Assembly: GCA_017412605.1 (NCBI GenBank)
Contig: JAFPWY010000009.1
Location: forward strand, 1-64,000
Direction of reading: 5' to 3'
DNA from: Fibrobacter sp.
GTDB taxonomy: Bacteria; Fibrobacterota; Fibrobacteria; Fibrobacterales; Fibrobacteraceae
Length of the DNA stretch: 64,000 nt
The translations under genes were made by a program, and so were the position numbers. Positions 4,986 to 54,869 of the stretch are shown here, piece by piece (position 1 is the first letter of the stretch; the number at the start of each line of letters is the position of its first letter). Below the pieces are notes generated by a model that did not search any database, was not told where the DNA came from, and was given only the letters and a program-made list of their open reading frames with translations.

Positions 4986-5009
4986 AGTAATCCAAATATA
5001 GTAAAAATC

Positions 5010-9500: not shown

Positions 9501-11326
9501 ACCACTCGCAAGCCTCGAACACGCCGCTGACCATCGGTGTCTACATCAGGTCGCCGCTAAACATCACATCGGCTAACCTGTACGTCAGGGCGTCGAACTC
9601 CATGAGCGAGCAATTCACGACCTACACATTGCAGCATGTCCGCGACAGCCTCTGGACATTCACCATTCCAGCAAACATCGTCGTGGCCCCGGGCCTAGAT
9701 TTCTACGTGACAGCTAGCGATGAGCTCGGGCAGCTGGGTAAGGCCCCGAAGATCACGACCCCGTCCATGGAGCCCTACACCATCTTCATCGACAACGACA
9801 TCCCCAACGTAGAGGTCGCATCCGTTGCGTGCGAAGATTCCACCAAGGACACGAAAACATTCTCATTCCGGCTTAGCGACAGCGACGGTATCGGAAGCGC
9901 AATCCTTTATTTCAGGGATTCCAAGCAAGTCATTTTTGATGCGCTCATTCTTTCCTACTCCGACAAGAACGATACATGGACTGCAGAAATTCCCGCCAAC
10001 GTGCGCGACTACACGAGCATCGACTATTACCTGCGCGTGACAGACCTTACCGGTGCAACCATCCGCTACCCGGGTAAAGAGAACCTGAACACGGACGCAT
10101 GCGAAATCAGGATGGTTATCCCTCCGGAAGATACGGCCAAGACAGATCCGATTCCCGAGGATTCCATATTGCCTCCGTCGCCGCGCGATTCCATCGAATA
10201 TTCGCTCTTCGCCGACACTGCTGAGATATACGACCGGAACCTGGACGGCCGTGCGGACTTCGTCCGCGTCCACTTCAAGGAAGAGAACGACAGCAACATC
10301 ACAAGCATCGACTCCATCTTCTGGAGCTCGAACCAAGGCGAATTGCGCTACGTACCGAAGGGAACTATCAAGAAGAGCAAGAAAGACGGAAAATGGTACG
10401 AGGCCTACATCAACAGCCCCTACAAGTACGGCTTGACCAAGGCCGACACATTGCACAAGCCTTTCCTGAGCTTCACAAGCATCCTTTCCGACAAGGTCGA
10501 GAACGTCAAGCTCTCCGATAAAGTCGGTGCAGTCCCCACGAAAGCAATCAAGTACCCCGGAAAAGTCGGGCTCGAAGAGTACATGGATCCGGACTCGAGA
10601 ATTCCTCCCGACACGCTCATCGTCAGGCTGTCCGAACCCATCACGAACATCGGCAAGGAAAAAGCGTGGAAGGACCTGTTCCGCTATTCAACATCCTGCA
10701 AGGACACCGCTTCACAGCCGCTCAAGCTGAAGGAAGCCCCAAAGATTAACGACAATGGCCAGCAATGGACCCTTATTCTTGAAGATTATTCACTCAAGGC
10801 CGGATACTGCCTGTCCACGAACCCATCAGCCACATACGAAGACCTGGCGGGGAACTCCCTCGGTCGCGGCGGCATCGAAGTCGACGGCAAGGATGGCTCA
10901 ATCTACCTGAGCGAAGTCAAGCCGGTAAAGCCTGTCAGCGGCAAGGGCAAGAATGCAAAATGGATTCCACCCAAAGCTTCCGACTGGGAAGATCTCCCGG
11001 ACTCCATATCGGCTATCAGCGTAAAGACCATGAAGCCCTACAAGGCCGAAGTCTACATTTTTGACGGAATCGGAACGTACGTAACGGACTTTAATCAAAA
11101 GTTCGGCTATGACGACGAGATGGACGACCCGATACGCGGCAACTCCAATGACAAATTCAAGCAAAGTTATCTGCACTGGGACCAGCGTTCCAAACAGGGC
11201 CGTCTAGCCGGTACAGGCGTCTACATCTGGAAGATTAACTTCAAGTTCAAGGACGGCCATAAGGAAACGAGAAACGTCAAAACGGGCATTTACCGTAAAG
11301 GCGACAAGAAAAAGAAGAAAAAATAA
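6545..11326 (+). CDS. Secreted VWA-domain giant protein, paralog 2
   Basis: About 1593 residues from GTG 6545, which has AAAGAGG 5 nt upstream; a TTG at 6512 is in frame but lacks a ribosome site. Order: signal peptide (FIVMILCFLVF); N-terminal domain; beta-sandwich plus InlB-like repeats (GYRFSNW, GYTFKSW); a lead-in typical of VWA proteins (VSVTDKNTGSSFYGL..DFVLTQDG); a VWA domain with MIDAS DQSNSM near 755 and a second metal region FSDGDNN; Ig-like domains; an acidic linker; a calcium-loop-like DRNLDGRADF; a FlgD/gliding-type C-terminal fold (FDGIGTYVTDF...GTGVYIWKI) ending in a lysine run. The fold and lysine tail suggest surface sorting. It has the same domain order as its two neighbours. 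Ligand unknown. Confidence 0.85.
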   Translation: MPAFIVMILCFLVFTTESIANVLIEGDSAPLTASNGDTVSLVARTRLNYGENLIKWEIVSGQGKFIDETADSTGFILSADDVIIRMVTQELPIYELTEQRTKYNFDKNSVRVPRSRSWGGDYGIRFYFDVQESGQYAQISEIDQSIGVFNIGTDSTFKTNDSRTCFNQKCFFTAKANTKHYTYIYASGYPNVFMKDSVFVRLSKTYSISTSHTGEGTVFVDSANKVWAIDSASVTRTYTKVIDNDSVKIYAKAGTNNAFDHWEKVSGSCVIENDQKDTTRIMSIHSDCKVKAVFRAGTVYPISSTPTQYNFVDHIYAKNVSSGAAGVRFLFTAPSAGTYAIVVSSKATQDSAKYIRYTATDYKTASVTERFLGTYSETLTLTAGQEVAIVIANTGKDANPFYINYATQAYKITLSSDGNGHVLPAGGYTTAYTGSRYSISAEASSGYRFSNWQTVSGTPTIEDANDPYTFVTIKDNVELKAQFKSSAIYTLSNKKQTFNFLQNYYSESTHSEIRFTWTPPDTNSYAFQIAPSGDINGIFKEYDGDKTFTTTSSESSFSEASSFIFRGTPGVPLYWVIRDSSNNIPNTSFSVWISSPYILNIKSATEGATNPSGKVYTSPGVKNIITAWPHGGYTFKSWVDIDGDMTITDPQSSRTTVILKDSVCTIKATFKVDKAAEPSLNISKLDISNYPEICAQVSVTDKNTGSSFYGLVSDDFVLTQDGEQLQPQVTSINNVTGVSVVIVVDQSNSMQTNKRMDKAKDAIRSFVNNMGPYDRTAIVGFVGNVYVKDPSPTASDTAKIKVDSTIVHQAMTSNKTLLLNSIDGIKAVGGSTNIITGTYIGVQQIVNETNATAVIVFSDGDNNSGTTNLNDVINLAQQKNTPIYSIGLETNTKYPLENLATSTGGTFSLASDASELGGLYAAIRDNVMSQYVVCFQTPDTTQNGETHDVVIGMTFNKIKTSDTAQWDEKAIPPIITLTEDTWDLINHSQASNTPLTIGVYIRSPLNITSANLYVRASNSMSEQFTTYTLQHVRDSLWTFTIPANIVVAPGLDFYVTASDELGQLGKAPKITTPSMEPYTIFIDNDIPNVEVASVACEDSTKDTKTFSFRLSDSDGIGSAILYFRDSKQVIFDALILSYSDKNDTWTAEIPANVRDYTSIDYYLRVTDLTGATIRYPGKENLNTDACEIRMVIPPEDTAKTDPIPEDSILPPSPRDSIEYSLFADTAEIYDRNLDGRADFVRVHFKEENDSNITSIDSIFWSSNQGELRYVPKGTIKKSKKDGKWYEAYINSPYKYGLTKADTLHKPFLSFTSILSDKVENVKLSDKVGAVPTKAIKYPGKVGLEEYMDPDSRIPPDTLIVRLSEPITNIGKEKAWKDLFRYSTSCKDTASQPLKLKEAPKINDNGQQWTLILEDYSLKAGYCLSTNPSATYEDLAGNSLGRGGIEVDGKDGSIYLSEVKPVKPVSGKGKNAKWIPPKASDWEDLPDSISAISVKTMKPYKAEVYIFDGIGTYVTDFNQKFGYDDEMDDPIRGNSNDKFKQSYLHWDQRSKQGRLAGTGVYIWKINFKFKDGHKETRNVKTGIYRKGDKKKKKK

Positions 11327-11351
11327 GGCATTTTCGCCATTCTTTTGGGCA

Positions 11352-11387
11352 AAGCACTGGGCAAAAAGAGGTCCGGTGCTTTTTTTT
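11352..11387 (+). terminator. Intrinsic terminator between VWA paralogs
   Basis: Stem AAGCACTGG/CCGGTGCTT (11352-11360 with 11373-11381, one G-U pair) followed by a T run. The two tandem VWA genes are therefore probably separate transcripts. Confidence 0.85.
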
Positions 11388-11462
11388 GTTCTTTTTGTAC
11401 AAAATAAGTATATATTCTTATTGGGCTAAACAATTTTCCATTTGTTTTTGAGAGGGGTGAGG

Positions 11463-14400
11463 GTGTTTGTCTTTTTCATACTATTTCTATGTTCCCTGGT
11501 CATGGCCGCAGGAGCCAACGCAGCCACAGTCACAATTGAAGGTGACAAGACCACCCATGAAGTTGCCATCGGAGATACACTATCAATCTCGACGTCGAAC
11601 ATCCTCAAAATAGGGGAAAACTTCGTCAAATGGGAGATTGTCTCGGGAACCGGACGTATCATTAACGAAACGGCTACTGCTACTGGATTTATCCCATCGT
11701 CCAATTCCGTAACCTTGAGACTGGTTACTCGGGCAATGCCTCCCCATAAAATAAGCGAAACCGTGTCCACGTTTCAATTGTACGAAAATAGCGTCCTCGG
11801 CATGTATAGCCGTTATGGCACGAACGTGTACTTCACCGCCACAGAAACCGGCACATACATAATCAACTACAAACTAAAAAATTCTCCCGGTATTTACACC
11901 TGCACCGACAGCACTGCACTTTCTTGCAGGGAATCGCTCACATCATGCGCAAATTCGAAATGCACGATCTCGGCAAATGCAGGCGAAACCAAATATTTCC
12001 TTTTTTGGTATTTAAACTATCCAGACATGCCTTTGACCGATTCCATAAAAATCTGGTTAACCAAGACCAACTCCGTATCCATCGCCGCTTCAGAAAATGG
12101 AACCGCGTATATCGATTCCGCACAAAAGAAATTTACTGTTCGTCGAGGACTTTTTGAAACAGACTCCGTGACCATCGTACCAACCCCCGGTGCAGACCAT
12201 ATTTTCGACCATTGGGAAGTTGTCTCCGGCACCTGTTCCATCCGGAATAGCAAAAAAGATACAACAACCGTATATAGCATAAAAACGAGTTGCCAAGTCA
12301 AAGCCGTTTTCGGTCCGGGAAAAATCTACGATATCACGAGCACACCAACAAAGTACAATTTCAACGAGCACTTGTACGCAAACTCAGTCACCCATGGCCG
12401 AGTCGGCGTACGGTTCACCTTCAAGGCTCCCAGCAGCGGCACATACGCCATTGTCTTGTCAAATTCATTAGCACAAGATACCATGAACTACATTCGTTAC
12501 ACATCTAGCGACTACACTACGGAAGCCCTATCAAAAAAGGTATGTGGGACCGGCTCCGAATCCCTAACACTCACAGCAGGCCAAACCGCCTATATTATTG
12601 TCAATTCAGATCGCAATGCCCCAACAGATTTCTATATCAGCTATGCAACACAGACATACCGCCTCACGTTGAATTCAGACGGGAAAGGGACTGTCAGTCC
12701 GAATGGAGGCTATTCGGCGGCCTACGCAGGCGCAAAGATTTCCATCAAAGCAACAGGAAACACGGGTTACCGCTTTTCCAACTGGCAGATTATATCGGGT
12801 TCGCCGGTAATTGAAGATAACGAACAAGCCTACACATATGCAGTCATCAACGGTGATGCCGAAATTAAAGCCATATTCAAGCCAGTCAGCATAAACACTC
12901 TTTCCTTGGCAAAGCAGGAGTTCAACTTTTCGAAGGACTATTATCATGAACAAAGCGCCGCAACAACGCGCTTTACCTGGACGCCGACCGATACATCCAC
13001 CTATTGCATTCGAATTGAACCCATTGATGAAGTTTTCGGGTATTTCAGTGATTATGGGAACGACAGTTCATTTACAACAACCATTAATGGTGGCATGATA
13101 ACGGGAGCAATCGATTTCTATTTCAAGGGTGAACCAGGCAAACCACACTACTGGTCAATCATGTCATATACAAAAGAGGTCTTTCCTGATGTAAGGTACA
13201 ATGTGTGGGTTTCCATTCCGTACTCGATTGAAGTTCTAGCCACAAAGGGTGGCTCCACCAATCCGTCCGGGAAGACGAACTACCGCATCGGGGAAACAAG
13301 TCAATTGACCGCATGGCCCCATGGCGGTTACAAGTTCGATTCCTGGGAGGTCGTCAAGGGCAAAGTCGACCTTTCGTCCAAAAAAGACGCCAATATTATA
13401 GCCACCCCAAGCGACTCGATATGCGTCGTAAAAGCAAAATTTATAGAAGACACTTCCGCCATACCGGTGTTAGACATTTTACAACTCGACTTAGGCAACT
13501 ACCCCCAAATCTGCACACAAGTTTCCGTTACAGACAAAAATACAGGGCTTTCATTCTATGGGCTCGAACCAAGCGACCTTACCCTGACCCAAGACGGGAA
13601 CGAAATCAAGACACAAGTTACGGGCATCAAGACGGTCATGGGAATATCCGTGGTCATCGTTGTCGACGAAAGTTCTTCGATGCTAACAAACAACCGTGCT
13701 GAAAAAGCAAAGGATGCCATCCGTTCGTTCATCAACGAAATGGGGCCATATGACAAAGTCGCCATAGTCGGGTTCGTCGGGAACAAGGACTCGACCGTAG
13801 TCCGCCAAGCCATGACATCGAACAAGACTCAGCTTCTGAGCGCCGTGAATACCATTACAACCAGCGGAAGCTCAACAAACATCATCTCGGGAGCTTATGC
13901 AGCCTTGCAGCAAATAACGAACGAGAGCAATGCGACCGCAGTCATTCTTTTTTCGGACGGAGATAACAACGACGGTACAATCAAGCAAGAAAGCGTCATA
14001 AACCTTGCAAAGTCGAAAAAGACGAGTATCTATACGATTGGCCTAGAAACCAACACGAGAAATCCCTTGGAAGCCCTAGCCAAGGGGACCGGAGGTATAT
14101 TCACCTTTGCCAAAGATGCTAGCGAACTGGGAGGCATCTACACGGCAATACGCGGCAATGTTGCAGAGCAGTACATGGTCTGCTACGAGTCGCCGGACAA
14201 GACCCTGAACGGCGAAACGCACAACGTCGTAATCTCAATGACATTCAACAAAAAGACCACCAAGGATTCCGTCCAATGGAACGAGGCGGCACTCCCGCCA
14301 ACAATTACACTCACGGAAGACACGTGGAAACTGATAGACAAGACCCAAAACGCAAACACACCGCTCACAATCAGCGTTTACATCACATCCATGCTCGACG

Positions 14401-21665: not shown

Positions 21666-23180
21666 CTTTATTCCAAGCTTGTTCATGCGGTAGTTCATCA
21701 TGCGCGGGGAAACTCCCAAATCGCGGCCTGCCGCAGAAAGGTTCCCGTTATTGCGCTTGATGGCCTCGGTAATGATTTCACGTTCGTAATTGTTCATCAT
21801 CACGTCGAGCGGAGCACTCTTCGCCCCGGATACGTCCACCGTACCCACGCTGAGGCTAGTCTGCAGTGACGGCGGCAAGTTGTAGCTGTGAACGCAGTCG
21901 TCGGTCGCAGTGAGCACCGCACGTTCCATGCAGTTCTCCAATTCACGCACGTTACCCGGCCAATGGTAGCTCATCAGCAGGTTGATAGCCGTCGTCGAAA
22001 GGCGCTGCACCTTCTTGCCGTAGCGGACATTCATCTTCTCGATAAAATGTTCCGCCAGCAAGATGATGTCGGACTTGCGCTTTGCCAAGTCGGGCATCGT
22101 GATGGGAAAAATGTTCAGGCGGTAGAAAAGGTCCTCGCGGAACTTTCCCTGCGCAATCAAATCTTCGAGGTTACGGCTCGTAGCAGCCAGGAAGCGCACA
22201 TCGGAATGCAGTTCCTCGTTGCTGCCCACACGGCTAAAGGTACGTTCCTGCAGGAATCGCAGGAGCTTGACCTGCGTCTGCATGGTCAAATCGCCAATTT
22301 CGTCCAGGAAAAGTGTGCCCCCGTCAGCAGCTTCGGCTCGGCCGATACGGCGGTTCACCGCACCCGTGAAGGCGCCCTTCTCATGACCGAAAAGTTCGCT
22401 TTCCACAAGGTTTTCAGGAAGCGCAGCACAGTTCAGCGTAATGAACGGCTTGTCCTTGCGAGCGGATAGGTTCACAATGGCACGGGCAATCATTTCCTTA
22501 CCCGTACCGCTACCACCGCGAATAAGTACGGTCGCATCGCTCGGGGCCACCTGGCGCACCTGCTCGTATATCATCTGCATTTCGCGGCAGTTGCCGACCA
22601 AGTCACCGGGGTTGTTCGAAAGCATGTCGCGGAGCTTGCGGTTTTCCTCGAGCATAGCCTCGCGCTCGTTATGCAGTTCGATGCATTCGTTCGCGGCATC
22701 GCCCGTGATATTTGCGATAATTTCTAGCAAGGCAACGTCACGATCCAGGTCCGTCGACCCGTCAACCGGGCGGTCAATCGAGAGCGTCCCGATAATCTGC
22801 TCGTCATGAATCAGGGGAACGCAGATGAACGCCACCTGCGATTCGTAATGGCGCGAGCCCGTACGGTTCAAAAAGCGGGAATCCTTGCGAAGGTCCGGAA
22901 TCACATGGCTGATACCGCGTTCGGCGACATGGCCCGTGATGCCCTCGCCCATGCGGTAAAAACCTTTCTGCTTTTCGGATTCGTCCAATCCACGGGAAGC
23001 TTCGATCTTGAGCGTATCACCAAAAAGGAGCGCGAAAGTGCCGCGCAACATTCCCAGTTCAGATTCCAAGATGCCAAGTACGTTTTCCAGCAATTTCTCC
23101 ACATTGCGTTCGTGGATAATCGCGACGCTAATCTTCTGAACCACTGAAATTTCTGGACCTATGGGAGATGGCATGTGCAT
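21654..23180 (-). CDS. Sigma54-dependent transcriptional activator, NifA-like (GAF-AAA+-Fis)
   Basis: 508 residues. GAF sensor domain about 15-165; AAA+ domain with Walker A GGSGTGKE (222-229), intact GAFTGA loop (269-274, contacts sigma54) and Walker B GTLFLDEIGDL (288-298); Fis-type helix-turn-helix at the end (NLSAAGRDLGVSPRMMNYRM). There is no response-regulator receiver, so it senses a small molecule or a partner rather than a kinase. It is the last gene of the leftward set dapF-dapL, 262 bp after dapL. A sigma54 promoter stands before dapF, so it may control its own operon. It is the only such activator in the window and the prime candidate for the sites before dapF, gltB and glnN. Confidence 0.92.
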   Translation of the reverse strand: MHMPSPIGPEISVVQKISVAIIHERNVEKLLENVLGILESELGMLRGTFALLFGDTLKIEASRGLDESEKQKGFYRMGEGITGHVAERGISHVIPDLRKDSRFLNRTGSRHYESQVAFICVPLIHDEQIIGTLSIDRPVDGSTDLDRDVALLEIIANITGDAANECIELHNEREAMLEENRKLRDMLSNNPGDLVGNCREMQMIYEQVRQVAPSDATVLIRGGSGTGKEMIARAIVNLSARKDKPFITLNCAALPENLVESELFGHEKGAFTGAVNRRIGRAEAADGGTLFLDEIGDLTMQTQVKLLRFLQERTFSRVGSNEELHSDVRFLAATSRNLEDLIAQGKFREDLFYRLNIFPITMPDLAKRKSDIILLAEHFIEKMNVRYGKKVQRLSTTAINLLMSYHWPGNVRELENCMERAVLTATDDCVHSYNLPPSLQTSLSVGTVDVSGAKSAPLDVMMNNYEREIITEAIKRNNGNLSAAGRDLGVSPRMMNYRMNKLGIKSGH

Positions 23181-23189
23181 AAGATAGTA

Positions 23190-23442
23190 AATAGGAGGTA
23201 GGGGTTGGAATTTAGGGGTTAGGATCTAAAGGTTAGAATCTAGGGGCTAGGATCTAGAGGCTAGGATCTAGAGGCTAGAATCTAGGGACTAGGGGTTAGG
23301 GAGAAATTTCACGGCTCCGCCGTCTGTTACTAACGCACGAAGTGCGTGAATCTTATTCACTAGCCTCAAGTCTCCCCCTAAGGGGCCATGCCCACATAAG
23401 TGCTGAAGCACTAAGTGGTCAAAGGTATTCTCTAGCCTCTTT
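23190..23442 (-). repeat. Intergenic inverted-minisatellite element A
   Basis: Degenerate short repeats of the type ggctaggatctaga fill 23205-23300. Small hairpins follow (ACGGC-TCC-GCCGT near 23312, ACGCAC-GAA-GTGCGT near 23335, AGTGCT-GA-AGCACT near 23400), then complementary ctagcctc units. The two arms can fold on each other. It lies between dapL and the activator gene; elements of the same design lie at 24652, 35197 and 42596. Confidence 0.7.
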
Positions 23443-24651
23443 TTACAATTTCTCCTTTATTCGCTGGAGAGCGATTTTCGTGCGTTCATGGTCACCGAAG
23501 GCGGTCAGGCGGAAATATCCCTCACCGCAGGGGCCGAATCCGCTACCCGGGGTGCCCACCACCTCGCATGTAGCCAGGAGCCTGTCGAAGAAATCAAAGG
23601 ACTTTTCGCCATCGGGGATTTTCCACCAAATGTACGGGGCATGTTCGCCGCCAAACACCGTGTAGCCCGCAGCCGTGAGTTCCTGCCGGATGAGCTTCGC
23701 CGTATCCATGTAACCCTTGATGACGCCCTGGGTCTGCTGCCAGCCCACTGGCGTGTAAATGGCCTCGGCGGCACGCTGCGTCACGTAGTTCACGCCATTG
23801 AACTTGGTACACTGGCGACGGTTCCACATGGCATGCAGTTTCGAAAGTTCGTGCGGGATGACCGTATAGGCACAGCGCACGCCCGTGAAACCGGCCGTCT
23901 TGCTGAAGCTGCGGAACTCGATAGCGCAAGTACGCGCCCCCGGAATTTCAAAAATGGAATGCGGCAGCGTTTCGTCCTGGATATAGCAGTTGTAGGCGCC
24001 ATCGAACAGGATCAATGCCCCGGTCTCGTTTGCGAAATCGACAAATTTCTGTAAAGTCTCGCGGCTGAGGACCGTACCCGTCGGGTTGTTCGGGCTGCAA
24101 AGGTAAATCAGCTGCACCGGATTCTTGGGCAAATCCGGCTGGAAATTGTTCTCGGCAGTCGAGGCGAGGTAGGTCACCTCGGAAAAATGACCGTCGGCCT
24201 GGAGCGTTCCGGTACGGCCAGCCATCACGTTAGAATCCAGATAAACCGGATAAACCGGATCGGGAATGGCAATCTTTACATTTTCTGAAAAGAGTTCCTG
24301 GATGTTCGCCACATCGCACTTGGATCCGTCGCTCACGAAGATGTCGTTCGGGTCCATTTCGATGCCGCGGGCGGTGTATTCCCCGCGGACGATAGCCTCA
24401 CGGAGAAAGTCGTAACCCTGTTCGGGGCCGTACCCGCGGAAGGTGTCCTTGACGGCCATCTCGTCGACAGCCTTGTGCATAGCGCCGATGACCTCGGGGA
24501 TAAGCGGCGTGGTCACGTCGCCAATACCTAAGCGGATGATGTCGGCATCGGCATGCTCGCCCTGGTATTCCTTGATTTTACGGGCGATTGTGGAGAAAAG
24601 GTAGCTGCCAGGCAGGCGGTCGTAGAAGGGGTTGATGTAGGATTCGTTCAT
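23443..24651 (-). CDS. dapL: LL-diaminopimelate aminotransferase
   Basis: 402 residues, fold-type I PLP aminotransferase of the DapL family. It converts tetrahydrodipicolinate directly to LL-diaminopimelate with glutamate as amino donor, bypassing the acylated intermediates. Seen: RLGIGDVTTPLIP near the start, substrate loop GYGPEQGYDFLREAI, CSPNNPTGT, and the PLP-lysine motif SFSKTAGFTGVRC. Length matches the family. It sits between dapF (upstream, same strand) and the sigma54 activator; both intergenic gaps are filled with repeat elements. Together with dapF it completes the last steps before meso-DAP for lysine and peptidoglycan. Confidence 0.93.
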   Translation of the reverse strand: MNESYINPFYDRLPGSYLFSTIARKIKEYQGEHADADIIRLGIGDVTTPLIPEVIGAMHKAVDEMAVKDTFRGYGPEQGYDFLREAIVRGEYTARGIEMDPNDIFVSDGSKCDVANIQELFSENVKIAIPDPVYPVYLDSNVMAGRTGTLQADGHFSEVTYLASTAENNFQPDLPKNPVQLIYLCSPNNPTGTVLSRETLQKFVDFANETGALILFDGAYNCYIQDETLPHSIFEIPGARTCAIEFRSFSKTAGFTGVRCAYTVIPHELSKLHAMWNRRQCTKFNGVNYVTQRAAEAIYTPVGWQQTQGVIKGYMDTAKLIRQELTAAGYTVFGGEHAPYIWWKIPDGEKSFDFFDRLLATCEVVGTPGSGFGPCGEGYFRLTAFGDHERTKIALQRIKEKL

Positions 24652-24833
24652 AAGTTAGGGGTTTGGATCTAGAGACTAGAATCTAGGGGTTAATGGTTAG
24701 GAAAAGACGAGAGAAAGTAAACAGTGGTTAGGGGTTAGAATCTAGGGGCTAGGGAAAAATTTCACGGCTTCGCCGTCTTTTATTGACGCACAAAGTGCGT
24801 GATTCTTATTCTCTAGTCTCTAGCCTCTATTCT
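24652..24833 (-). repeat. Intergenic inverted-minisatellite element B
   Basis: Left arm units gatctagagactagaatctag; central hairpins CACGGC-TTC-GCCGT (about 24762-24776) and CGCAC-AAA-GTGCG (24785-24799); right arm with ctctagtctctagcctc units complementary to the left. The core closely matches element A, showing shared descent. Confidence 0.7.
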
Positions 24834-25706
24834 CTAGTCTCTCATTACAATCTCTCCTTTAAATACTTCTTGTGCGGGGCCAGTCATAAGGACGGGTCCG
24901 TCTTCCTCGTGCTTGATGTGGAGGACGCCTCCGTCCAGCACGATGTCGGCCTCGACGCCCACGCGGCCCGTTCTCTGGGCCGCAACGAGGGTTGCGCAGC
25001 TACCAGTGCCACAGGCCATGGTGACGCCGCAACCCCGTTCCCAGACCCGCATGCGGATCTGGGTGGGCGTCACCACCTGTGCAAACTCGATATTGCATCT
25101 GTCGGGGAACTGCTTGTCGACCTCCAGAATGCTCCCCCACTTTTCCAGCTGGATCTTCTCGATGTCATCGACAAAGATGACCGCATGCGGGTTGCCCATC
25201 GAGACCGTCTCGGCAGTAAAGTCGTAGCTATCGGCGGTGAGCTTGATGGAGCCGAGGAAATTCCTGGGGAGCCCCATATCCACGCACACGCGACCGTCTT
25301 CCAAAAGAGCCGGTTTCACGAGCCCGCTCTTCGTATGCAGATTGAAAACCTTGGTGTCGGCCGACTTGGCAAGCCCGCGGCTGACGATGAACTTTGCCAC
25401 GCAGCGCGTCGCATTCCCGCACATAGCCGCCTCGGATCCGTCGGCATTGAAAATGCGCATCTCGAAATCGACGCCATTCGCGACCGCCTTGGACGCAGGT
25501 CCCACTCCGGCCTTGTCCAAGACCAGGCACCCATCGCCATCCATCGGAGTCACGATGACCACGCCATCGGCTCCAATACCGAACCGCCTGTCGCAAAGGC
25601 GGATAACATTTTCCGTAAAGCCCTTACCAAAATCGGGAGTCTGACCAGGCTCCAGGAGCACAAAGTCATTACCCAGACCGGTCCATTTTGAAAATTTCAT
25701 AGGCAT
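24834..25706 (-). CDS. dapF: Diaminopimelate epimerase
   Basis: 290 residues. Converts LL- to meso-diaminopimelate without a cofactor, using two cysteines; both are in place: MCGNATRC (first Cys) and ACGTGSCA (second Cys). The N-terminus KFSKWTGLGNDFVLL is typical. ATG 25706 and ATG 25700 are both possible. First gene of the leftward dapF-dapL-activator set. A sigma54 promoter (25740-25756) and paired inverted repeats (25832-25877) lie directly upstream, so expression should depend on a sigma54 activator. Confidence 0.95.
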   Translation of the reverse strand: MPMKFSKWTGLGNDFVLLEPGQTPDFGKGFTENVIRLCDRRFGIGADGVVIVTPMDGDGCLVLDKAGVGPASKAVANGVDFEMRIFNADGSEAAMCGNATRCVAKFIVSRGLAKSADTKVFNLHTKSGLVKPALLEDGRVCVDMGLPRNFLGSIKLTADSYDFTAETVSMGNPHAVIFVDDIEKIQLEKWGSILEVDKQFPDRCNIEFAQVVTPTQIRMRVWERGCGVTMACGTGSCATLVAAQRTGRVGVEADIVLDGGVLHIKHEEDGPVLMTGPAQEVFKGEIVMRD

Positions 25707-25739: not shown

Positions 25740-25756
25740 AGCAAAGAATATGCCAA
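25740..25756 (-). promoter_or_regulatory. Sigma54 (-24/-12) promoter of dapF
   Basis: On the minus strand TTGGCATATTCTTTGCT: GG and GC separated by exactly 10 nt. One mismatch to the TTGGCACG-N4-TTGCW consensus (T for C in the -24 block). Predicted start about 25729, 23 nt before the first dapF ATG. Confidence 0.8.
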
Positions 25757-25831
25757 TTTTACAGAAAATGTTAAACTAGCCCAAAAACGCCATTTTTATC
25801 AAATATTCACCAATTAAGCCAGTATTTTACT

Positions 25832-25877
25832 TTACATTTTATGTAAAACAAAAGCCTAGTTTTTACATAAAATGTAA
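25832..25877. promoter_or_regulatory. Paired activator sites upstream of dapF
   Basis: Two perfect TTACA-N5-TGTAA inverted repeats at 25832-25846 and 25863-25877, centres 31 bp apart, about 110 and 141 bp upstream of the predicted sigma54 start. They fall between the dapF promoter and the stop of the preceding lipoprotein gene. The same arrangement occurs before gltB. Inferred enhancer for a sigma54 activator. Confidence 0.75.
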
Positions 25878-44511: not shown

Positions 44512-46443
44512 TCACCTCGACCAATCGTCAAACGAAGCGTCACTGGGCATGCGCCAATCGGCACGCGGGGACAGCGAGATGGTTCCCACCTTCGGGCCAT
44601 CCGGGATGCAACTACGCTTGAACTGTTGCGTAAAGAAACGACGCACGAAAACGGCAAGAGCCTTTTCCAATTCCCCGTCAGTGAATCGGCCTGCAAAGGC
44701 ATACTTGGCGAGGAACAGGAGCTTTTGAGGCGGAGCACCGTATTTCACGAAATGGTACAGGAAGAAATCGTGAATTTCGTAGGCACCCAGGATGCTCTCG
44801 GTCTTTTGCGCAATTTGTCCGTTGGGAGCGGCAGGCAAAAGTTCCGGAGAAACCGGAGTGTCCAAAATATCCTTGAGCACAGTCCTAAGCGCAGCATCGG
44901 AACGGCCTGCATACCAATCCACAATATGGCGCACGAGCGTCTTGGGGACATCGCAGTTGACAGCGTACATCGACATGTGATCGGCATTGTAAGTGCTCCA
45001 CCCGAGCGCAATTTCGGAGAGGTCTCCCGTGCCAATAACAATTCCGCCCTCGCTGTTCGCGACATCCATCAGTATTTGGGTGCGTTCCCTAGCCTGGACG
45101 TTTTCGTAAGTCACGTTAAAAACCTTCGGATCGTGCCCAATATCGGCAAAATGCAATTGACAGGCATTGCGGATATCGACCGTTCTGAGTTCCACGCCCA
45201 AAAGTTCCGCAAGTACCACCGCATTATTCTTTGTACGCCTCGTGGTTCCAAACCCGGGCATCGTGAGCGCAAGGATTTCGTTGGCAGGGCGCTTGAGCAA
45301 CTTGAACGTTTCCGCGACAACGAGCAAAGCCAAGGTCGAATCGAGGCCGCCAGAAAGTCCGATGACGGCACGCTTACTATGTGACGCCTCGAGACGCTTT
45401 GCAAGCCCTGCGCACTGGATGTTGAAAATCTCGGTGCAGGATAGATCCCTAGTCTCAAGGTTTCCCGGCACAAAAGGCGCCGGCGAGACAAAGCGGAACT
45501 TGAGCGATTCAACCGGACGTAAATTTTCAATCGTGGCGGCACGGGCATAGACCTCCCGGCCGTCAAAGTCCTGGAAGGAACCTTCGCTTAGACGCTGCAT
45601 GTTCAGTCGATCGGCATCGACATCGGCATAAATAATTTCTGTTTCGCGGGAAAACGGCTTGTTTTCGGCCAGCATGCTACCATTTTCGGCAATCATCAAA
45701 TGGCCGCTAAAAACCATATCCGTCGTCGATTCATGTACGCCAGCCGAAGAATACACGTAGGCAGCCATGCAGCGTGCCGACTGGTTCAGCACCAGGTTAC
45801 GTCGGTAATCCTGCTTGCCCACCAACGCATCGCTCGCGGAAAGGTTTACAATGACATTGGCCCCGGCAAAAGCAAGCTCGCCGCTAGGCGGCGCCGGAGT
45901 CCACAAATCTTCGCAAAGTTCCACGCCCACGCGGACCTCGGAACCAGAACCTTTCACCGTAATAAAATTCGTCACCGGGACATCGCCCGCCCCTTCGATA
46001 CAGCAAAGGACCGGATGCCCGTCAGCACCGCCCCGCAACAAGTCTCGGCCACTCGAAAAATGGCGTTTTTCGTAGAACTCGCGCTGGTTCGGCAAATGAA
46101 TCTTGGGCGTTACCGCAACCACCTTGCCTCGCTGCAAAAAAGCGGCACAATTATAAAGACGGCCAAACATCCGAAGCGGAAGCCCTACGGCAATAACCGC
46201 GTCCGACTCTTCGAACGCCTTTGCGATTTTCAGTAGCGAATCCAAGCTATTCCTGAGCAAAAGTTCCTGATGGAACAAATCGCTGCAAGTGTATCCCGTA
46301 ATGCTGAGTTCAGGGAACACGACAAAAGCCGCCCCGTTGGAAACAGCGGCAGCGGCACTTTTAATAATCTCTTCGGTATTGTAGGCGGTATCGGCCACCC
46401 GCAAACGCGGAGAGACACACGCAAAACGATAAAATCCAAACAT
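44512..46443 (-). CDS. nadE: Glutamine-dependent NAD+ synthetase
   Basis: 643 residues, two domains. N-terminal nitrilase-type glutaminase with Glu (FPELSITGY), Lys (TPKIHLPN) and Cys (GVELCEDLW). C-terminal synthetase with the ATP loop GLSGGLDSTLALLV, plus GTGDLSEIALGWSTYNADHMSMY. Converts deamido-NAD to NAD with glutamine nitrogen. It starts 12 nt after the gltD stop, so it should share the gltB sigma54 promoter, tying NAD formation to glutamine/glutamate supply. Confidence 0.95.
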   Translation of the reverse strand: MFGFYRFACVSPRLRVADTAYNTEEIIKSAAAAVSNGAAFVVFPELSITGYTCSDLFHQELLLRNSLDSLLKIAKAFEESDAVIAVGLPLRMFGRLYNCAAFLQRGKVVAVTPKIHLPNQREFYEKRHFSSGRDLLRGGADGHPVLCCIEGAGDVPVTNFITVKGSGSEVRVGVELCEDLWTPAPPSGELAFAGANVIVNLSASDALVGKQDYRRNLVLNQSARCMAAYVYSSAGVHESTTDMVFSGHLMIAENGSMLAENKPFSRETEIIYADVDADRLNMQRLSEGSFQDFDGREVYARAATIENLRPVESLKFRFVSPAPFVPGNLETRDLSCTEIFNIQCAGLAKRLEASHSKRAVIGLSGGLDSTLALLVVAETFKLLKRPANEILALTMPGFGTTRRTKNNAVVLAELLGVELRTVDIRNACQLHFADIGHDPKVFNVTYENVQARERTQILMDVANSEGGIVIGTGDLSEIALGWSTYNADHMSMYAVNCDVPKTLVRHIVDWYAGRSDAALRTVLKDILDTPVSPELLPAAPNGQIAQKTESILGAYEIHDFFLYHFVKYGAPPQKLLFLAKYAFAGRFTDGELEKALAVFVRRFFTQQFKRSCIPDGPKVGTISLSPRADWRMPSDASFDDWSR

Positions 46444-46455
46444 GAGAAAGATATG

Positions 46456-47817
46456 TTAGAGTCTGCTTACCTTCGCGCGAGCGTCGGCCATGGCACGGAC
46501 AACAAGCGAGGCTCCGTTCGCACAGTCACCCACCGCGTGGATATGGCGTTCGGGTTCAGCGATAATCGCCGTACGCGGGGTCAGCTTAAGTCCGAGATCG
46601 TTCACGATGCCTTCGGCAGGAACGCCGGTGAAGCCCATCGCGAGCACAACAAGGTCAGCCTCGATGATTTCCGTCGTATTCGGGACCTCGTTCGGCTTGA
46701 GCGGTTTGCCTTGCGGGGACATTTCCCAGTCGACCTTCACCACTTCGACACCGGCCACGTGACCGTCCTTCACAATGAACTGCTTGGACGAAACATTCCA
46801 GCGGCGTTCACCGCCTTCATGCTGGGCATAGCTCGTACGCAGCACGTAAGCCCAATCGGGCCACGGCGTCGACGGAGAACGGGTCTCGGGCGGCTTCGGC
46901 ATAAATTCCACCTGCAGTACGCTTGCGCAGCCTTCGCGGATGGATTTGCCCACACAGTCGTTACCCGTATCGCCTCCGCCGATAATCAAGACTTTCTTGC
47001 CCTTGGCACTGAAGCGCTCGGGATTCGTTTCGCCGGGTCTGTTCGCCCCATGCAAGAAATCAAGCGCAAGGAAAATGCCTTCGGCTTCGCGGCCAGGGAT
47101 TTTTAGGTCACGGGCGTTCGGAGTACCGATGGCAAGGATGACCTCATCATAGTTCTTGCGGATATATTCCGCCGAAATGTCCTTGCCGATTTCGGTATTG
47201 CACACAAACTTGATACCGGCTGCTTCGAGAAGCGCTACACGGCGGTCGATGATGGACTTGTCGAGTTTCCAGTTCGGGATGCCGTAACGGAGAAGCCCGC
47301 CCACCTTCGGATTCTTTTCGTAGACCGTCACCGCGTAACCCTTGCGGCGAAGCGCCTCGGCAGCGTACAGGCCCGAAGGACCCGAGCCGATGACCGCAGC
47401 AGTCTTTCCGTTAGGTTCTGCAGACGGGAGCTTTACCAGGCCCTGCTCATAGGCAGATTCGATAATAAATTTTTCAATCTGGCGGACCATCACCGGATCG
47501 TCATGGACATTGCCGGTGCAAGCGGATTCGCAAAGCGCCGGGCAGACGCGTCCCGTGAATTCCGGGAAAAACGCCGTCTTGCTGATGACATCGTAGGCAC
47601 GTTCCAGATTGCCAATGGCCACGGCCGCGTTGAATTCGGGGACCAAGTTCCCGAGCGGGCAGCCCGCACCATGGCAGAACGGGATGCCGCACGTATGGCA
47701 GCGGCCCGCCTGGTTGATGACCTCAATCGAAGTGAGCTTGCGCTCGACTTCCTTATTGTCCTTGACGCGCTCTTCGACAGGGCGGTAGATATCTTGAATT
47801 CGGGTTACTTGTTCCAT
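46456..47817 (-). CDS. gltD: Glutamate synthase small subunit
   Basis: 453 residues. N-terminal iron-sulfur region CHTCGIPFCHGAGCPLGN and CPALCESACTGN; FAD site IGSGPSGLYAAEAL; NADPH site IIGGGDTGNDCVG; C-terminal AVGDCANGASLVVRAM. Passes electrons from NADPH to GltB. It starts 7 nt after gltB. Confidence 0.96.
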   Translation of the reverse strand: MEQVTRIQDIYRPVEERVKDNKEVERKLTSIEVINQAGRCHTCGIPFCHGAGCPLGNLVPEFNAAVAIGNLERAYDVISKTAFFPEFTGRVCPALCESACTGNVHDDPVMVRQIEKFIIESAYEQGLVKLPSAEPNGKTAAVIGSGPSGLYAAEALRRKGYAVTVYEKNPKVGGLLRYGIPNWKLDKSIIDRRVALLEAAGIKFVCNTEIGKDISAEYIRKNYDEVILAIGTPNARDLKIPGREAEGIFLALDFLHGANRPGETNPERFSAKGKKVLIIGGGDTGNDCVGKSIREGCASVLQVEFMPKPPETRSPSTPWPDWAYVLRTSYAQHEGGERRWNVSSKQFIVKDGHVAGVEVVKVDWEMSPQGKPLKPNEVPNTTEIIEADLVVLAMGFTGVPAEGIVNDLGLKLTPRTAIIAEPERHIHAVGDCANGASLVVRAMADARAKVSRL

Positions 47818-47824: not shown

Positions 47825-50800
47825 TCATCCCTTCTTTGCCAAAGCGTTACGGTAATCGATCGGGAATATCTTCACAAACTTCGGACGTTCGCAGTTCCAG
47901 TTTTCAAGGATACGCTTGCCCTTCTCGCTACCCGTAGCGTCCACATGCTGCTGGATAATATCCATCAGTTCCTTTTCGCTTTCGGTACCGGGGAGCACGC
48001 TTTCCAAGTCAGCGGAATCCACATTGCAGCTCAGGTCGAAATGACCCGTTTCGTCGTACACGTAGGCAAATCCGCCCGTCATACCGGCAGCGAAGTTCAC
48101 ACCCACACGACCGAGCACGACCACACGGCCACCCGTCATGTATTCGCAACCGTGGTCACCCACGCCTTCGCTCACCAGGAGCATACCGGAGTTACGGATG
48201 CCGAAGCGTTCGCCGGCGAGACCGTTGATGAAGATCTTGCCGCTCGTTCCGCCGTAACCGATGACGTTACCGGCAATGACGTTCTCTTCGGCCTTGAACG
48301 AGGCGTTGTGCGGCGGACGTACGATAATCTTTCCGCCCGAAAGGCCCTTGCCCATAAAATCGTTCGCTTCGCCTTCGAGGTCGAGCGTGACACCCGGAGC
48401 AAGGAAGGCACCGAAGCTCTGGCCCGCGACACCCTGAAGGTGAATCTTGATGGTATCTTCGGGGAGACCCTTCACGCCGAAGTGTTCGTCCACTTCGCCA
48501 GAAAGTTCCGTACCCACCGTACGGTCGGTGTTGTGCACCACCGTGCAAAGTTCCACCGGAGCACCGCTCTTGAGCGAGTCGCTTACGAACGGGAGTATTT
48601 CGCGACGGTCGAAGTTTTCGAGAGCTTCCTTCACGTAATTCTTATCGAATGACTTGACGCCGCCTTCGACAGTCTGGAAGATCTTGCTGAAGTCAAGGTG
48701 CTTGGCCTTGTAGAATTCAATGGCGGAATCCTTCTCGAGGAGGTCGCTACGGCCGCAGGCTTCTTCGAGGGAATGCAGGCCGAGGCTGGCGAGGATTTCG
48801 CGGACTTCGTCGGCGATGAAGAAGAGGAAGTTTTCCACGTATTCGGGCTTGCCGGCAAAGCGCTTGCGGTAAGCGGCATCCTGCGTAGCGATACCCATGG
48901 GGCACTGGTTCGTATGGCACTTGCGGTCCATCACGCAACCGAGGCTTACCAGCAGGTTGGTAGCAAAGCCGAATTCTTCGGCACCGAGGAGGGCTGCCAC
49001 CACGATGTCGCGACCCGTCTTGAGCTGGCCATCGACCTGGAGCTTGATGCGGCCACGCAAATCGTTGAGCACGAGCGTCTGTTCCGCTTCGGCAATACCG
49101 AGTTCCCAAGGAAGGCCGGCATGCTTGATGGAAGTGAGCGGAGATGCGCCCGTACCGCCATCGTGACCGGAAATCAGCACCACGTCGGCATGGGCCTTAG
49201 CCACACCCGCGGCAATCGTACCCACGCCCACTTCAGACACGAGCTTCACCGAGACACGGGCCTTCGGGTTCGAGTTGCGCAAGTCGTAAATGAGCTGTGC
49301 CAAGTCTTCAATGGAGTAAATATCATGATGCGGCGGCGGAGAAATCAGCGAGACGTTCGGAATGCTGTGACGGATGCGGGCCACAAATTCGTTCACCTTG
49401 TGGGCCGGCAGCTGGCCGCCCTCACCGGGCTTCGCTCCCTGCGCCATCTTGATCTGCAAATCCTTTGCATGGCGCAGGTAGTCGATCGTGACGCCAAAGC
49501 GTCCCGATGCCACCTGACGGATGGCAGAACTGCGGATATCTCCGTTAGCAGCCGGAGTATCGCGGTCGGGGTCTTCACCACCTTCACCGCAGTTGCTCAT
49601 GGCGCCGATGCGGTTCATCGCAATGGCAATCGTCTCGTGGGCTTCTGGGCTCAAAGAGCCAAGGCTCATGGCGCCCGCCACGAAGTGCTTCAAAATCGAT
49701 TCGCGGCTTTCGACTTCGGAAATATCGATCGGGGTCGTTTCCTTGAACTTGAAGAGTCCGCGCAAAGTCGCCTGACGTTCGGACTGGTCGTTGATGAGCT
49801 TGCTGTAAACCTTGAACTTTTCGTAATCGCTGCCCTGCACGGCCTGGCGGAAAGCAGCCAGGGACTGCGGAGTCCAAAGGTGCTTCTCCCCTTCCTTGCG
49901 GAAGGCATACTGGCCACCCGACTGCAGCACGCGACTGGCGTCGGCAAAGGCGATTTTCTGACGGTCGTTGACTTCGCAGGCAATTTCCTCGAGTCCGATA
50001 CCTTCGATACGGCTTGCGGTACCCGGCAGGAACTTTTCCACGAGTTCGTGGTTCAGGCCGACGGCTTCGAAAATCTGGGCGCTGCGGTAGCTGCGGAGCG
50101 TCGAGATACCCATCTTGCTCATGATCTTGAGGAGGCCCTTGTCCACAGCCTTCACGTAGTTTGCAGCAGCCGTCACCGGGTCGACATCCAGGTCGCCGGT
50201 GTGGCACATGTTGGTAATGGTTTCAAAAGCGAGGTACGGGTTGATGACCGTCGCGCCAAAACCGAGGAGGAGAGCAAAGTGCATCACTTCGCGGACTTCA
50301 CCGCTCTGCACGATCAAGCCGATTTCGGGACGGACGCCCGCTTCCACCAGGGCACGGTTCACGCTAGCCGTCGCCAAGAGCGAAGGTATAGGCACATAGC
50401 CCCAGTCAATGTTCTTGTCCGAAAGCACGATGATATCGTACTTGTCGTTCACCGCACGCACGGCATCGCCGGCGAGGTTCTGCAAAGCAGCTTCCAGCAC
50501 TTCGCCGTTTCCGCCGAGCGGGAACTGCATCTTGAGCACCTTCGCCTTGAAGGCCTTGTCGCCAATGTTTTCAAAGCGGCGGATTTCGTCTTCGGTCACG
50601 ATCGGGCGCGGAATCTTAATGAGGTGCGCCTGTTCCGGAGTTTCTTCGAGGATGTTGCCGTGGTTGCCGATGTAGGTCGTCAAGCTCATCACGAGCTCTT
50701 CACGGATCGGGTCAATCGGCGGGTTCGTCACCTGGGCGAACAGCTGCTTGAAGTAGTTGAACAGCGGCTGCGGCTTGTCCGAAAGCACGGCAAGCGCGGC

Positions 50801-52243
50801 ATCGTTACCCATGGAGCCAATCGGCTCGGCACCGTTCTTGGCCATCGGCTGCAAGATGATGGAAAGGTCTTCGGCAGAATAGCCAAAGCGTTTCTGCTGC
50901 ACCAGGATGTCTTCCGGGACATCGGACGGGTTGATTTCGCTGAAGAGGCCGCGGACGCTCATCTTGTTCTCGGCAACCCAGCGGCGGTAAGGCTTGGCTC
51001 TCGCCACCTGCGCCTTCATTTCGGCGTTCTTCAAGATACGGTGGTTTTCGAGGTCGAGGTAGATGATCTCGCCGGGTTTGAGGCGGCCCTTTTCTTCCAC
51101 CTCGTCATCGCGGAGGTCGAGCACACCCGTTTCGGAGGCCATCACGAAAAGACCGTCTTTACATAAAGTGTAACGTGCCGGACGGAGGCCGTTGCGGTCG
51201 AGGATCGCACCCGCATTCACGCCATCGCTGAACGCCACGGCGGCAGGGCCATCCCACGGTTCCATAAGCATGGATTCGTATTCGAAGAAGCCACGCACGT
51301 CGCGGCCGAGGTAATGCTTCTTGCCCCAGGCCTGCGGCATGAGCATCATCATCGCATGCGGGAGGCTACGACCTGCTGCGACGAGGAGCTCAAACATATT
51401 GTCCAAGCTGGCGGAGTCGCTCTGGCCCGGCATCACGAGCGGAAGGAGTTTCGGCATGTCATCGCCGATAATCCCGCTCTTCAGGTACGGCTCGCGGGCG
51501 CGGAGGCTGTTCAGGTTACCACGTAGCGTGTTGATTTCGCCGTTGTGCGCAAGGTAGCGGAACGGGTGCGCAAGCTGCCAGGTCGGGAATGTGTTGGTAG
51601 AGTAGCGCTGGTGAACAAGGGCAAGCGGGCTTTCAAAGTCAAGGTCGTTCAAATCCTTATAGAAGCCTTCAATCTGGCTTGCCAGCAACAGACCCTTATA
51701 AACAATGCTACGGCGGCTGCAGCTGCAGACATAGACACCCTTGCAAGCCTTCTCGATCAGGCGGCGGATCACGTAAAGCTTGATGTCGAAAGCGGAATCG
51801 TTTTCAAACTTGGAACCGTCGAAGAATGCCTGGCGGATATGCGGCAAGGTTTCGCGGGCAGTGCGGCCGATAGAAGAGGAATCGACGGGAACCTCGCGGA
51901 AGTTCACGACAGGAACACCCTCGGATTCGGCGATGCGCTTGATTTCCGCATCGAAGGCTGTCGCCTCGAGCGTATTCTCGACGAAGAACATAGCCACGCC
52001 ATAGCGTTCCGGCAAATCCACACAAACCTTGCGGAAGAACTTGTGTGGCATAGAAAGCAAAAGACCCGCACCGTCACCGGTTTCCGGGTCTCCACCTGCT
52101 GCGCCACGATGCATCAGCCTCTTAAGGACAGTAATGCCCTGCAGCACAATCTGGTGCGAGGCGATATTATTTACATTGGCAACAAGACCGACACCGCAGG
52201 CGTCATGTTCGTTGGCCGGATCGTAAAGAGCTTGAGCGTGCAT
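47825..52243 (-). CDS. gltB: Glutamate synthase large subunit
   Basis: 1472 residues from ATG 52243 (AAGGA 6 nt upstream); a frame extension to 52282 lacks a ribosome site. Short propeptide, then the catalytic Cys of the class II glutaminase (HDACGVGLVANVNN, Cys at about 16). Central domain, FMN barrel (GEGGEDPDR, GGTGASPLTSIKHAG), 3Fe-4S cysteines (CVMDRKCHTNQCPMG), C-terminal glycine-rich beta-helix (GYGGTSGKIFINGLAGERFG). Makes glutamate from glutamine and 2-oxoglutarate. First gene of gltB-gltD-nadE, driven by a consensus sigma54 promoter. Confidence 0.97.
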   Translation of the reverse strand: MHAQALYDPANEHDACGVGLVANVNNIASHQIVLQGITVLKRLMHRGAAGGDPETGDGAGLLLSMPHKFFRKVCVDLPERYGVAMFFVENTLEATAFDAEIKRIAESEGVPVVNFREVPVDSSSIGRTARETLPHIRQAFFDGSKFENDSAFDIKLYVIRRLIEKACKGVYVCSCSRRSIVYKGLLLASQIEGFYKDLNDLDFESPLALVHQRYSTNTFPTWQLAHPFRYLAHNGEINTLRGNLNSLRAREPYLKSGIIGDDMPKLLPLVMPGQSDSASLDNMFELLVAAGRSLPHAMMMLMPQAWGKKHYLGRDVRGFFEYESMLMEPWDGPAAVAFSDGVNAGAILDRNGLRPARYTLCKDGLFVMASETGVLDLRDDEVEEKGRLKPGEIIYLDLENHRILKNAEMKAQVARAKPYRRWVAENKMSVRGLFSEINPSDVPEDILVQQKRFGYSAEDLSIILQPMAKNGAEPIGSMGNDAALAVLSDKPQPLFNYFKQLFAQVTNPPIDPIREELVMSLTTYIGNHGNILEETPEQAHLIKIPRPIVTEDEIRRFENIGDKAFKAKVLKMQFPLGGNGEVLEAALQNLAGDAVRAVNDKYDIIVLSDKNIDWGYVPIPSLLATASVNRALVEAGVRPEIGLIVQSGEVREVMHFALLLGFGATVINPYLAFETITNMCHTGDLDVDPVTAAANYVKAVDKGLLKIMSKMGISTLRSYRSAQIFEAVGLNHELVEKFLPGTASRIEGIGLEEIACEVNDRQKIAFADASRVLQSGGQYAFRKEGEKHLWTPQSLAAFRQAVQGSDYEKFKVYSKLINDQSERQATLRGLFKFKETTPIDISEVESRESILKHFVAGAMSLGSLSPEAHETIAIAMNRIGAMSNCGEGGEDPDRDTPAANGDIRSSAIRQVASGRFGVTIDYLRHAKDLQIKMAQGAKPGEGGQLPAHKVNEFVARIRHSIPNVSLISPPPHHDIYSIEDLAQLIYDLRNSNPKARVSVKLVSEVGVGTIAAGVAKAHADVVLISGHDGGTGASPLTSIKHAGLPWELGIAEAEQTLVLNDLRGRIKLQVDGQLKTGRDIVVAALLGAEEFGFATNLLVSLGCVMDRKCHTNQCPMGIATQDAAYRKRFAGKPEYVENFLFFIADEVREILASLGLHSLEEACGRSDLLEKDSAIEFYKAKHLDFSKIFQTVEGGVKSFDKNYVKEALENFDRREILPFVSDSLKSGAPVELCTVVHNTDRTVGTELSGEVDEHFGVKGLPEDTIKIHLQGVAGQSFGAFLAPGVTLDLEGEANDFMGKGLSGGKIIVRPPHNASFKAEENVIAGNVIGYGGTSGKIFINGLAGERFGIRNSGMLLVSEGVGDHGCEYMTGGRVVVLGRVGVNFAAGMTGGFAYVYDETGHFDLSCNVDSADLESVLPGTESEKELMDIIQQHVDATGSEKGKRILENWNCERPKFVKIFPIDYRNALAKKG

Positions 52244-52302
52244 ATAAATCCTTTCTTCGTTTCGCGCAACCACGCGCGACATTTATTTTTGCGAACAAGG
52301 AT

Positions 52303-52319
52303 TGCAAAATCCGTGCCAA
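52303..52319 (-). promoter_or_regulatory. Sigma54 promoter of gltB
   Basis: On the minus strand TTGGCACGGATTTTGCA, a full match to TTGGCACG-N4-TTGCA, with GG-N10-GC. Predicted start about 52292, about 49 nt before the gltB ATG. Confidence 0.9.
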
Positions 52320-52404
52320 ACGGGGGAAAACCGCTCCAAAAAATGAAAAAGCGGAAATAAAATGTAAAAAACAGGCTTTTTGCTCGTTTAAAGCCCACGA
52401 CATA

Positions 52405-52449
52405 TTACAAATTATGTAACAACAATGACAAAAATTACAATTAATGTAA
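52405..52449. promoter_or_regulatory. Paired activator sites upstream of gltB
   Basis: Two perfect TTACA-N5-TGTAA inverted repeats at 52405-52419 and 52435-52449, centres 30 bp apart, about 120 and 150 bp upstream of the predicted gltB start. Same spacing and distance as the pair before dapF. Confidence 0.78.
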
Positions 52450-52559
52450 TATCTACATACAGCAAGCGAAACTCGATACAGATAAACAAGGTCCAGGACA
52501 CCAGGCAAACCCTTCCCTATTATATAAGCAGAGGGTATAAGAACAAGAACGCCCCACCT

Positions 52560-52603
52560 TTACACAATCCGTAACCTTTTTTGAATTTTTTCATTTTCTG
52601 TAA
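52560..52603. promoter_or_regulatory. Degenerate paired activator sites upstream of glnN
   Basis: TTACA-N5-CGTAA at 52560-52574 and TTTCA-N5-TGTAA at 52589-52603, each one base off the dapF/gltB sites, centres 29 bp apart, about 153 and 124 bp upstream of the predicted glnN start. Position and spacing agree with the perfect pairs. Confidence 0.6.
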
Positions 52604-52692
52604 TATTTTCACATTTCTCAAAAGCGCATCGAAAAATCAAATTTTTCTCTTTTTCAAACAAATTCCGCAAGTTTTGCATACAGGTTCACAAC

Positions 52693-52709
52693 TTGGCACA
52701 CTTTTTGCA
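52693..52709 (+). promoter_or_regulatory. Sigma54 promoter of glnN
   Basis: TTGGCACACTTTTTGCA: GG-N10-GC with both consensus blocks. Predicted start about 52720, 29 nt before the ATG. Confidence 0.9.
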
Positions 52710-52748
52710 TTCATGGCACCGAAAACAAAAACACAAAAGGAGTTTGCC

Positions 52749-54869
<2,121 letters not shown>

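Follow-up and report, generated by a model that had tools for sequence, protein, structure and literature searches.

Here we address which protein controls the divergent genes gltB and glnN of a Fibrobacter genome, and through which sites in the DNA that separates them. Fibrobacter are fibre-degrading gut bacteria, and for those of the rumen ammonia is a main nitrogen source. In a first-pass annotation of the stretch of DNA analysed (64,000 nucleotides; hereafter the window), the region was assigned two sigma54 promoters and two TTACA-N5-TGTAA repeats, read as activator sites that control glutamate synthase (GOGAT), NAD synthetase and type III glutamine synthetase (GSIII) together.

Sigma54 promoters and paired dyads in the window

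Both assigned promoters are exact matches to TGGCACN5TTGCW, with the GG and GC of -24/-12 elements (Table 1); they are the only exact matches in the 64-kb window and belong to a set of nine in the 3.53 Mb source genome (G000; 15 contigs). With one mismatch allowed, the motif is no commoner in this genome than its backwards control (51+65 versus 62+74 matches), so that a sigma54 element by itself constitutes weak evidence. Perfect sigma54 elements were also observed upstream of dnaK (Hsp70), a sigma-70 family sigma factor gene and an Hsp20 gene (L021, L028 and L029, near 1501); these lack TTACA dyads, a hint of a further sigma54 circuit that might be stress-related.

Table 1. Coordinates in the window of the genes, sigma54 elements and dyads discussed; +1 positions, from which all dyad-centre distances are counted, are inferred from the -12 element
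Feature	Position	Strand	Details
EBP1, NifA-like sigma54 activator, 508 aa	21654..23180	-	Pfam GAF, AAA+ (Sigma54_activat), HTH_8; orthologues, synteny
dapL, LL-diaminopimelate aminotransferase	23443..24651	-	TIGR03542 above cut-off
dapF, diaminopimelate epimerase	24834..25706	-	PF01678
dapF-dapL-EBP1 sigma54 element	25740..25755	-	TGGCATATTCTTTGCT, one mismatch; inferred +1 = 25729
dapF third dyad, candidate feedback site	25759..25773	.	one mismatch; centre -37; 3 bp from -24 element
dapF proximal dyad	25832..25846	.	exact; centre -110
dapF distal dyad	25863..25877	.	exact; centre -141
nadE, glutamine-dependent NAD synthetase, last in putative gltBD-nadE operon	44512..46443	-	NF002730 above cut-off
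gltD, glutamate synthase small subunit	46456..47817	-	TIGR01317 above cut-off
gltB, glutamate synthase large subunit	47825..52243	-	NCBIfam NF008730, 1687 bits
gltB -24/-12 sigma54 element	52303..52318	-	exact TGGCACN5TTGCW, TGGCACGGATTTTGCA; inferred +1 = 52292
gltB proximal dyad	52405..52419	.	exact TTACA-N5-TGTAA, TTACAAATTATGTAA; centre -120
gltB distal dyad	52435..52449	.	exact TTACA-N5-TGTAA, TTACAATTAATGTAA; centre -150
glnN distal dyad	52560..52574	.	one mismatch, TTACACAATCCGTAA; centre -153
glnN proximal dyad	52589..52603	.	one mismatch, TTTCATTTTCTGTAA; centre -124
glnN -24/-12 sigma54 element	52694..52709	+	exact TGGCACN5TTGCW, TGGCACACTTTTTGCA; inferred +1 = 52720
glnN, type III glutamine synthetase	52749..54869	+	GSIII_N PF12437, 257 bits

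The two repeats upstream of gltB are exact in the sequence and stand 30 bp apart, as annotated. The distances of about 120 and 150 bp given for them hold from the predicted transcription start but not from the start codon, the likely gltB ATG being 52243 rather than 52282 (MHAQALYDPANEHDACG, with AAAGGA upstream as ribosome-binding site), which puts the dyads 169 and 199 bp away from that codon and would give a 5' leader of ~49 nt. A second pair, overlooked at first, lies upstream of glnN with its dyads 29 bp apart, and its positions (-153/-124) mirror those of the gltB pair (-150/-120). The proposed joint control consequently stands insofar as both promoters carry a pair and a sigma54 element, but through separate pairs; a single pair common to the two genes is out, and each gene retains a pair in species where gltB and glnN were not observed as neighbours. 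The gaps in gltB-gltD-nadE are 7 and 12 bp, and by this operon spacing nadE would be co-controlled with gltBD.

At up to one mismatch, TTACA-N5-TGTAA occurs 11 times in the window, against 0.73 expected (sd 0.83, maximum 3; 100 shuffles). Exact dyads number nine in G000, compared to three for the backwards pattern, and five of the nine fall inside the window; those at 51159, inside gltB, and at C13:285756 look incidental.

The window holds a third pair, which had also been missed, together with a gene for a NifA-like activator that we refer to as EBP1. This pair, with dyads 31 bp apart, precedes dapF-dapL-EBP1, where the -24/-12 element carries one mismatch and is kept at 39 distinct dapF promoters. 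From its orientation EBP1 putatively shares an operon with dapF-dapL, across gaps of 182 and 262 bp, and the activator gene is itself under the arrangement of pair and sigma54 element. Both gaps (window 23180-23443 and 24651-24834) are full of short degenerate repeats of the ggttagaatctagg type.

Recurrence, geometry and candidate regulon

Across 81 genomes, a search for two exact dyads with 13-17 bp between them recovered the pair in 37 of the 49 genus genomes, plus one order-level relative; its backwards control returned 0. Similarly, a dyad lies 68-98 bp from TGGC-N7-TTGC in 40 of the 81 genomes (control 0). A sigma54 element is found 60-200 bp from 48 of 54 distinct pairs, versus 0.33% of random points in the same loci. 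Among the six exceptions, the element is slightly nearer in L136 and L172, and a near-match stands in its place in L165 (purF) and L180 (CTP synthase); L163 (purF) is without any element, and the L171 pair falls within coding sequence. The first-pass annotation had named a lack of excess of pairs near sigma54 promoters as the outcome that would count against it, and the excess over random points, with the backwards control at 0, is the reverse of that outcome. Its reading of the repeats as activator sites is further supported by the genus-wide presence of pair and sigma54 element at gltB, glnN, glnK-amtB and dapF-dapL-EBP1. Most exact pairs sit at the EBP1 operon, such that the co-occurrence of pair and EBP1 is in part physical linkage. 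For this reason, and given how many of the genomes are incomplete, whether a genome has EBP1 was dropped as independent proof. The sole genome with a pair and without EBP1 (G016) has a contig that ends inside dapF.

Counted over distinct promoters, the pair is present at dapF (39/39), glnN (29/36), gltB (11/14), glnK (3/4), a second CTP synthase gene (8/8) and sigma54-type purF (2/2). All of the dapF, CTP-synthase and purF loci, and many others, came from searches for these sites or adjoin them; the glnN loci came from a protein search, and therefore only the glnN fraction nears an estimate of prevalence. From these promoters we infer a regulon of gltBD-nadE, glnN, glnK-amtB and dapF-dapL-EBP1, to which some species add purF and the second CTP synthase. 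In G000, glnK-amtB has a perfect sigma54 element and one clear dyad, not two, an exact match whose centre lies at -111 from the inferred +1. Two exact dyads stand upstream of purF in G000 without a sigma54 element, and the purF dyads of G006 likewise lack one.

Within pairs the spacing keeps to 29-32 bp, whereas the position of the proximal dyad varies from about -87 to -174. Its positions follow a periodicity of ~10.7 bp (resultant 0.61, reached by 0 of 5000 simulated sets, a p value that is optimistic in that related positions were counted separately). The additional dyad at -37 occurs at 38 of 39 dapF-EBP1 promoters, at one of eight CTP-synthase promoters and at none of those of glnN, gltB or glnK. 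EBP1 of G031 is preceded by its own sigma54 promoter, which has the same pair plus the -37 dyad and indicates that this three-site layout accompanies the regulator gene. At five promoters of the second CTP synthase (L136, L154, L159, L169 and L172) an extra TTACA-N5-TGTAA-like dyad was observed between promoter and ATG, just past the inferred start, a possible repressor position.

EBP1 as the probable activator

EBP1 combines the features of an enhancer-binding protein, namely an AAA+ domain (PF00158, 236 bits) with Walker A and GAFTGA motifs, and a helix-turn-helix domain (PF02954), with a GAF domain in place of a receiver domain. Walker A (GGSGTGKE) and GAFTGA are intact in all 30 orthologues read. 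The genome encodes a single rpoN (PF04552 at C6:176440-176925) and seven clear sigma54 activators, none of which reaches the ntrC equivalog cut-off of 558.6 bits (best 350). EBP1 was accordingly rejected as NtrC, on this cut-off and on the absent receiver domain. Its best NCBIfam model is TIGR01817 (nifA), at 458 bits below the equivalog cut-off of 528.85; it was rejected as NifA on this score and on the nifHDK-like cluster of G000, where dyads and a matching sigma54 element were looked for and none found. This cluster (L329, G000:C6:52000-66000, 3847-12592; identities partly by eye) adjoins a LysR-type gene and a small NifX-like protein, with a neighbour that resembles an SsuA/TauA-type ABC transporter. 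Given this neighbourhood and the lack of dyads and sigma54 element, it may not serve nitrogen fixation, and may instead serve sulfur or another substrate.

Orthologues of EBP1 (at least 81% identity) were identified in 39 genus genomes, and one further genus genome has a fragment. G050 has an orthologue too, as the third gene of gltB-gltD-EBP1; this set diverges from glnN, and the pair lies between the two. In Fibrobacter sp. UBA1765 (L052) EBP1 lies at most 14 kb from glnN and gltB. Distant relatives adjoin glnN in G078 (55% identity), in G067 (45%) and in a Lentisphaeria (L062, 58%).

On the combined evidence of sites, spacings, recurrence, co-location and activator architecture, we consider it highly probable that the pairs are enhancers of a sigma54 nitrogen regulon, activated by EBP1 in the manner of NtrC and NifA, with binding as the predicted step. 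EBP1 would bind each TTACA-N5-TGTAA dyad; two dyads spaced by 29-32 bp, or about three turns of the helix, and located some 90-175 bp upstream of the start would nucleate the active oligomer of this GAF, AAA+ and HTH_8 protein, which would then loop to sigma54-RNA polymerase at -24/-12 and remodel it via ATP hydrolysis. The gltB-gltD-nadE, glnN, glnK-amtB and dapF-dapL-EBP1 units would be activated jointly, presumably under nitrogen limitation, with purF and the second CTP synthase joining in some species. The signal, which may be 2-oxoglutarate, glutamine or GlnK, would act via the GAF domain. Excess EBP1 at the -37 dyad, beside the polymerase site, would limit its own expression. Such feedback is suggested by analogy with E. 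coli glnAp2, where extra low-affinity governor sites nearer the promoter were proposed to limit output (PMC3870243); unlike those of glnAp2, the additional Fibrobacter site centres at -37 and is restricted to the promoter of the regulator itself.

The alternative that survives best, which we nevertheless regard as unlikely, is that the dyads are sigma54 enhancers bound by another activator, with EBP1 only a target. Besides EBP1 the candidates are EBP2, EBP3 and four others: EBP2 has the same recognition helix as EBP1, SPRMM, and might bind these half-sites as well, and a dyad with a sigma54 element occurs in G042, a 71% complete genome in which EBP1 was undetected. Against this, EBP2 has a pair of its own at glnN2 (described below) and an eroded GAFTGA in most genomes, EBP3 has GALVGV rather than GAFTGA, and it is EBP1-like genes, rather than those of the other activators, that outgroup synteny places with glnN and gltB. 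EBP3 (L277, G000:C10:149500-156000, 2368-3894) was observed as a third NifA-like GAF activator, with Walker A GEVGTGKG; it is kept across the genus at ~43% identity to EBP1 and is probably not a normal sigma54 activator.

Less probable still is that the dyads are sites of an independent repressor or global regulator with no role in sigma54 activation, and lie near sigma54 promoters since nitrogen genes need several inputs. The purF dyads without sigma54 element in G000 and G006 would suit this explanation, as would the -37 and CTP-synthase downstream dyads, which occupy positions fit for repression; however, the link between pair and sigma54 element is nearly complete, and the enhancer-like distance, fixed spacing and helical phase to that element suit activation from afar. 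Chance occurrence of the repeats in AT-rich intergenic DNA has next to no probability, and for the pairs is refuted by their presence, mostly at orthologous promoters, in genus genomes where the control found nothing, even if a single exact dyad (51159, in gltB) and the L171 pair fall in coding DNA.

A paralogous regulator and relation to known systems

In addition to EBP1, the genome encodes EBP2, which is divergent from a second GSIII gene, glnN2 (L276, G000:C13:106000-110500, 908-2041 and 2282-4390). EBP2 is without a GAF domain, and GAFAGA replaces GAFTGA in G000; other genomes have GAFIGA, GAFLGA or an intact GAFTGA, the motif being eroded in most. The helix-turn-helix domains of EBP1 and EBP2 are nearly identical, and in a phylogenetic tree with only two EBP2 rows and a long branch the two proteins cluster together (100/99), separate from the remaining activators. 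The EBP2-glnN2 intergenic region lacks a sigma54 element and has a pair of TTACA-N4-TGTAA dyads spaced 28-29 bp apart. Searching for TACA-N4-TGTA pairs gave one per genome in 37 of the 49 genus genomes (control 0), which adjoins glnN2 in all 28 Fibrobacter loci read out.

Exact TTACA-N4-TGTAA dyads in G000 are limited to four, the glnN2 pair and two identical copies (TTACAAAAATGTAA) 82 bp apart upstream of gdhA, which encodes glutamate dehydrogenase (L330, G000:C1:104500-110500, 2937-2950 and 3019-3032). As single dyads they are not enriched in G000 (four versus five for the backwards control); only their placement is suggestive, and with five backwards matches the link to gdhA is no more than a lead. 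Upstream of glnN or gltB, N4 pairs together with sigma54 elements occur in G067, G103, the Lentisphaeria L062 (-142/-111) and an Opitutales (L067). On the simplest reading of these sequences, N4 with sigma54 would be ancestral, EBP1 would have shifted to N5, and EBP2 would have retained N4 and left sigma54.

Tentatively, and at slightly less than even confidence, we propose that a duplicated NifA-like GSIII regulator gave rise to two circuits insulated by a one-bp difference in spacer, EBP1 with N5 and sigma54 promoters and EBP2 with N4 and housekeeping promoters, the N4-sigma54 combination being ancestral and extending beyond the phylum. Within this two-circuit proposal, EBP1 would drive the GS-GOGAT and GlnK-AmtB set, and EBP2 would control glnN2 and perhaps gdhA in G000. 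If true, this would represent a natural case of paralogous regulators insulated by spacer length.

At glnAp2 of E. coli, which is activated by NtrC, two strong enhancer dyads lie about three turns apart, somewhat more than 100 bp upstream of a sigma54 promoter. The Fibrobacter arrangement resembles this enteric system (glnALG) in that a dyad pair precedes the sigma54 promoter of a gene for ammonia assimilation, and in a regulator gene that would be autoregulated. It differs in that EBP1 has a GAF rather than a receiver domain, in that the operator is TTACA-N5-TGTAA and not an NtrC site, and in targets that include GSIII, GOGAT-nadE and dapF-dapL. With NifA, EBP1 shares the domain order GAF, AAA+, HTH, and its closest solved sequence is a NifA chain (9qq6), whereas its operator is not TGT-N10-ACA and its targets are those of ammonia assimilation. 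The NtrC proteins of Caulobacter and Rhodobacter that lack GAFTGA act at sigma70 promoters (PMC10274813). EBP2 is similar in its eroded GAFTGA in most genomes and in a neighbour, glnN2, without a sigma54 element, but it has point changes and no loop deletion, and some genomes keep GAFTGA; EBP1, unlike these NtrC proteins, retains GAFTGA and sigma54 targets. We found no published description of the operator, regulon or regulator, and no account of ammonia-assimilation control in Fibrobacter, in the open literature. The mechanism is classical; what is undescribed in the open literature searched is the operator and its regulator, along with the link to GSIII and the split in spacer length.

Together, the recurrent pairs at nitrogen genes and the activator gene among them point to a probable Fibrobacter nitrogen-control circuit, and provide a candidate regulator, operator, target list and spacing rules for nitrogen control in these bacteria. 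Furthermore, they would tie type III glutamine synthetase, an enzyme widespread outside Proteobacteria, to a NifA-like sigma54 activator.
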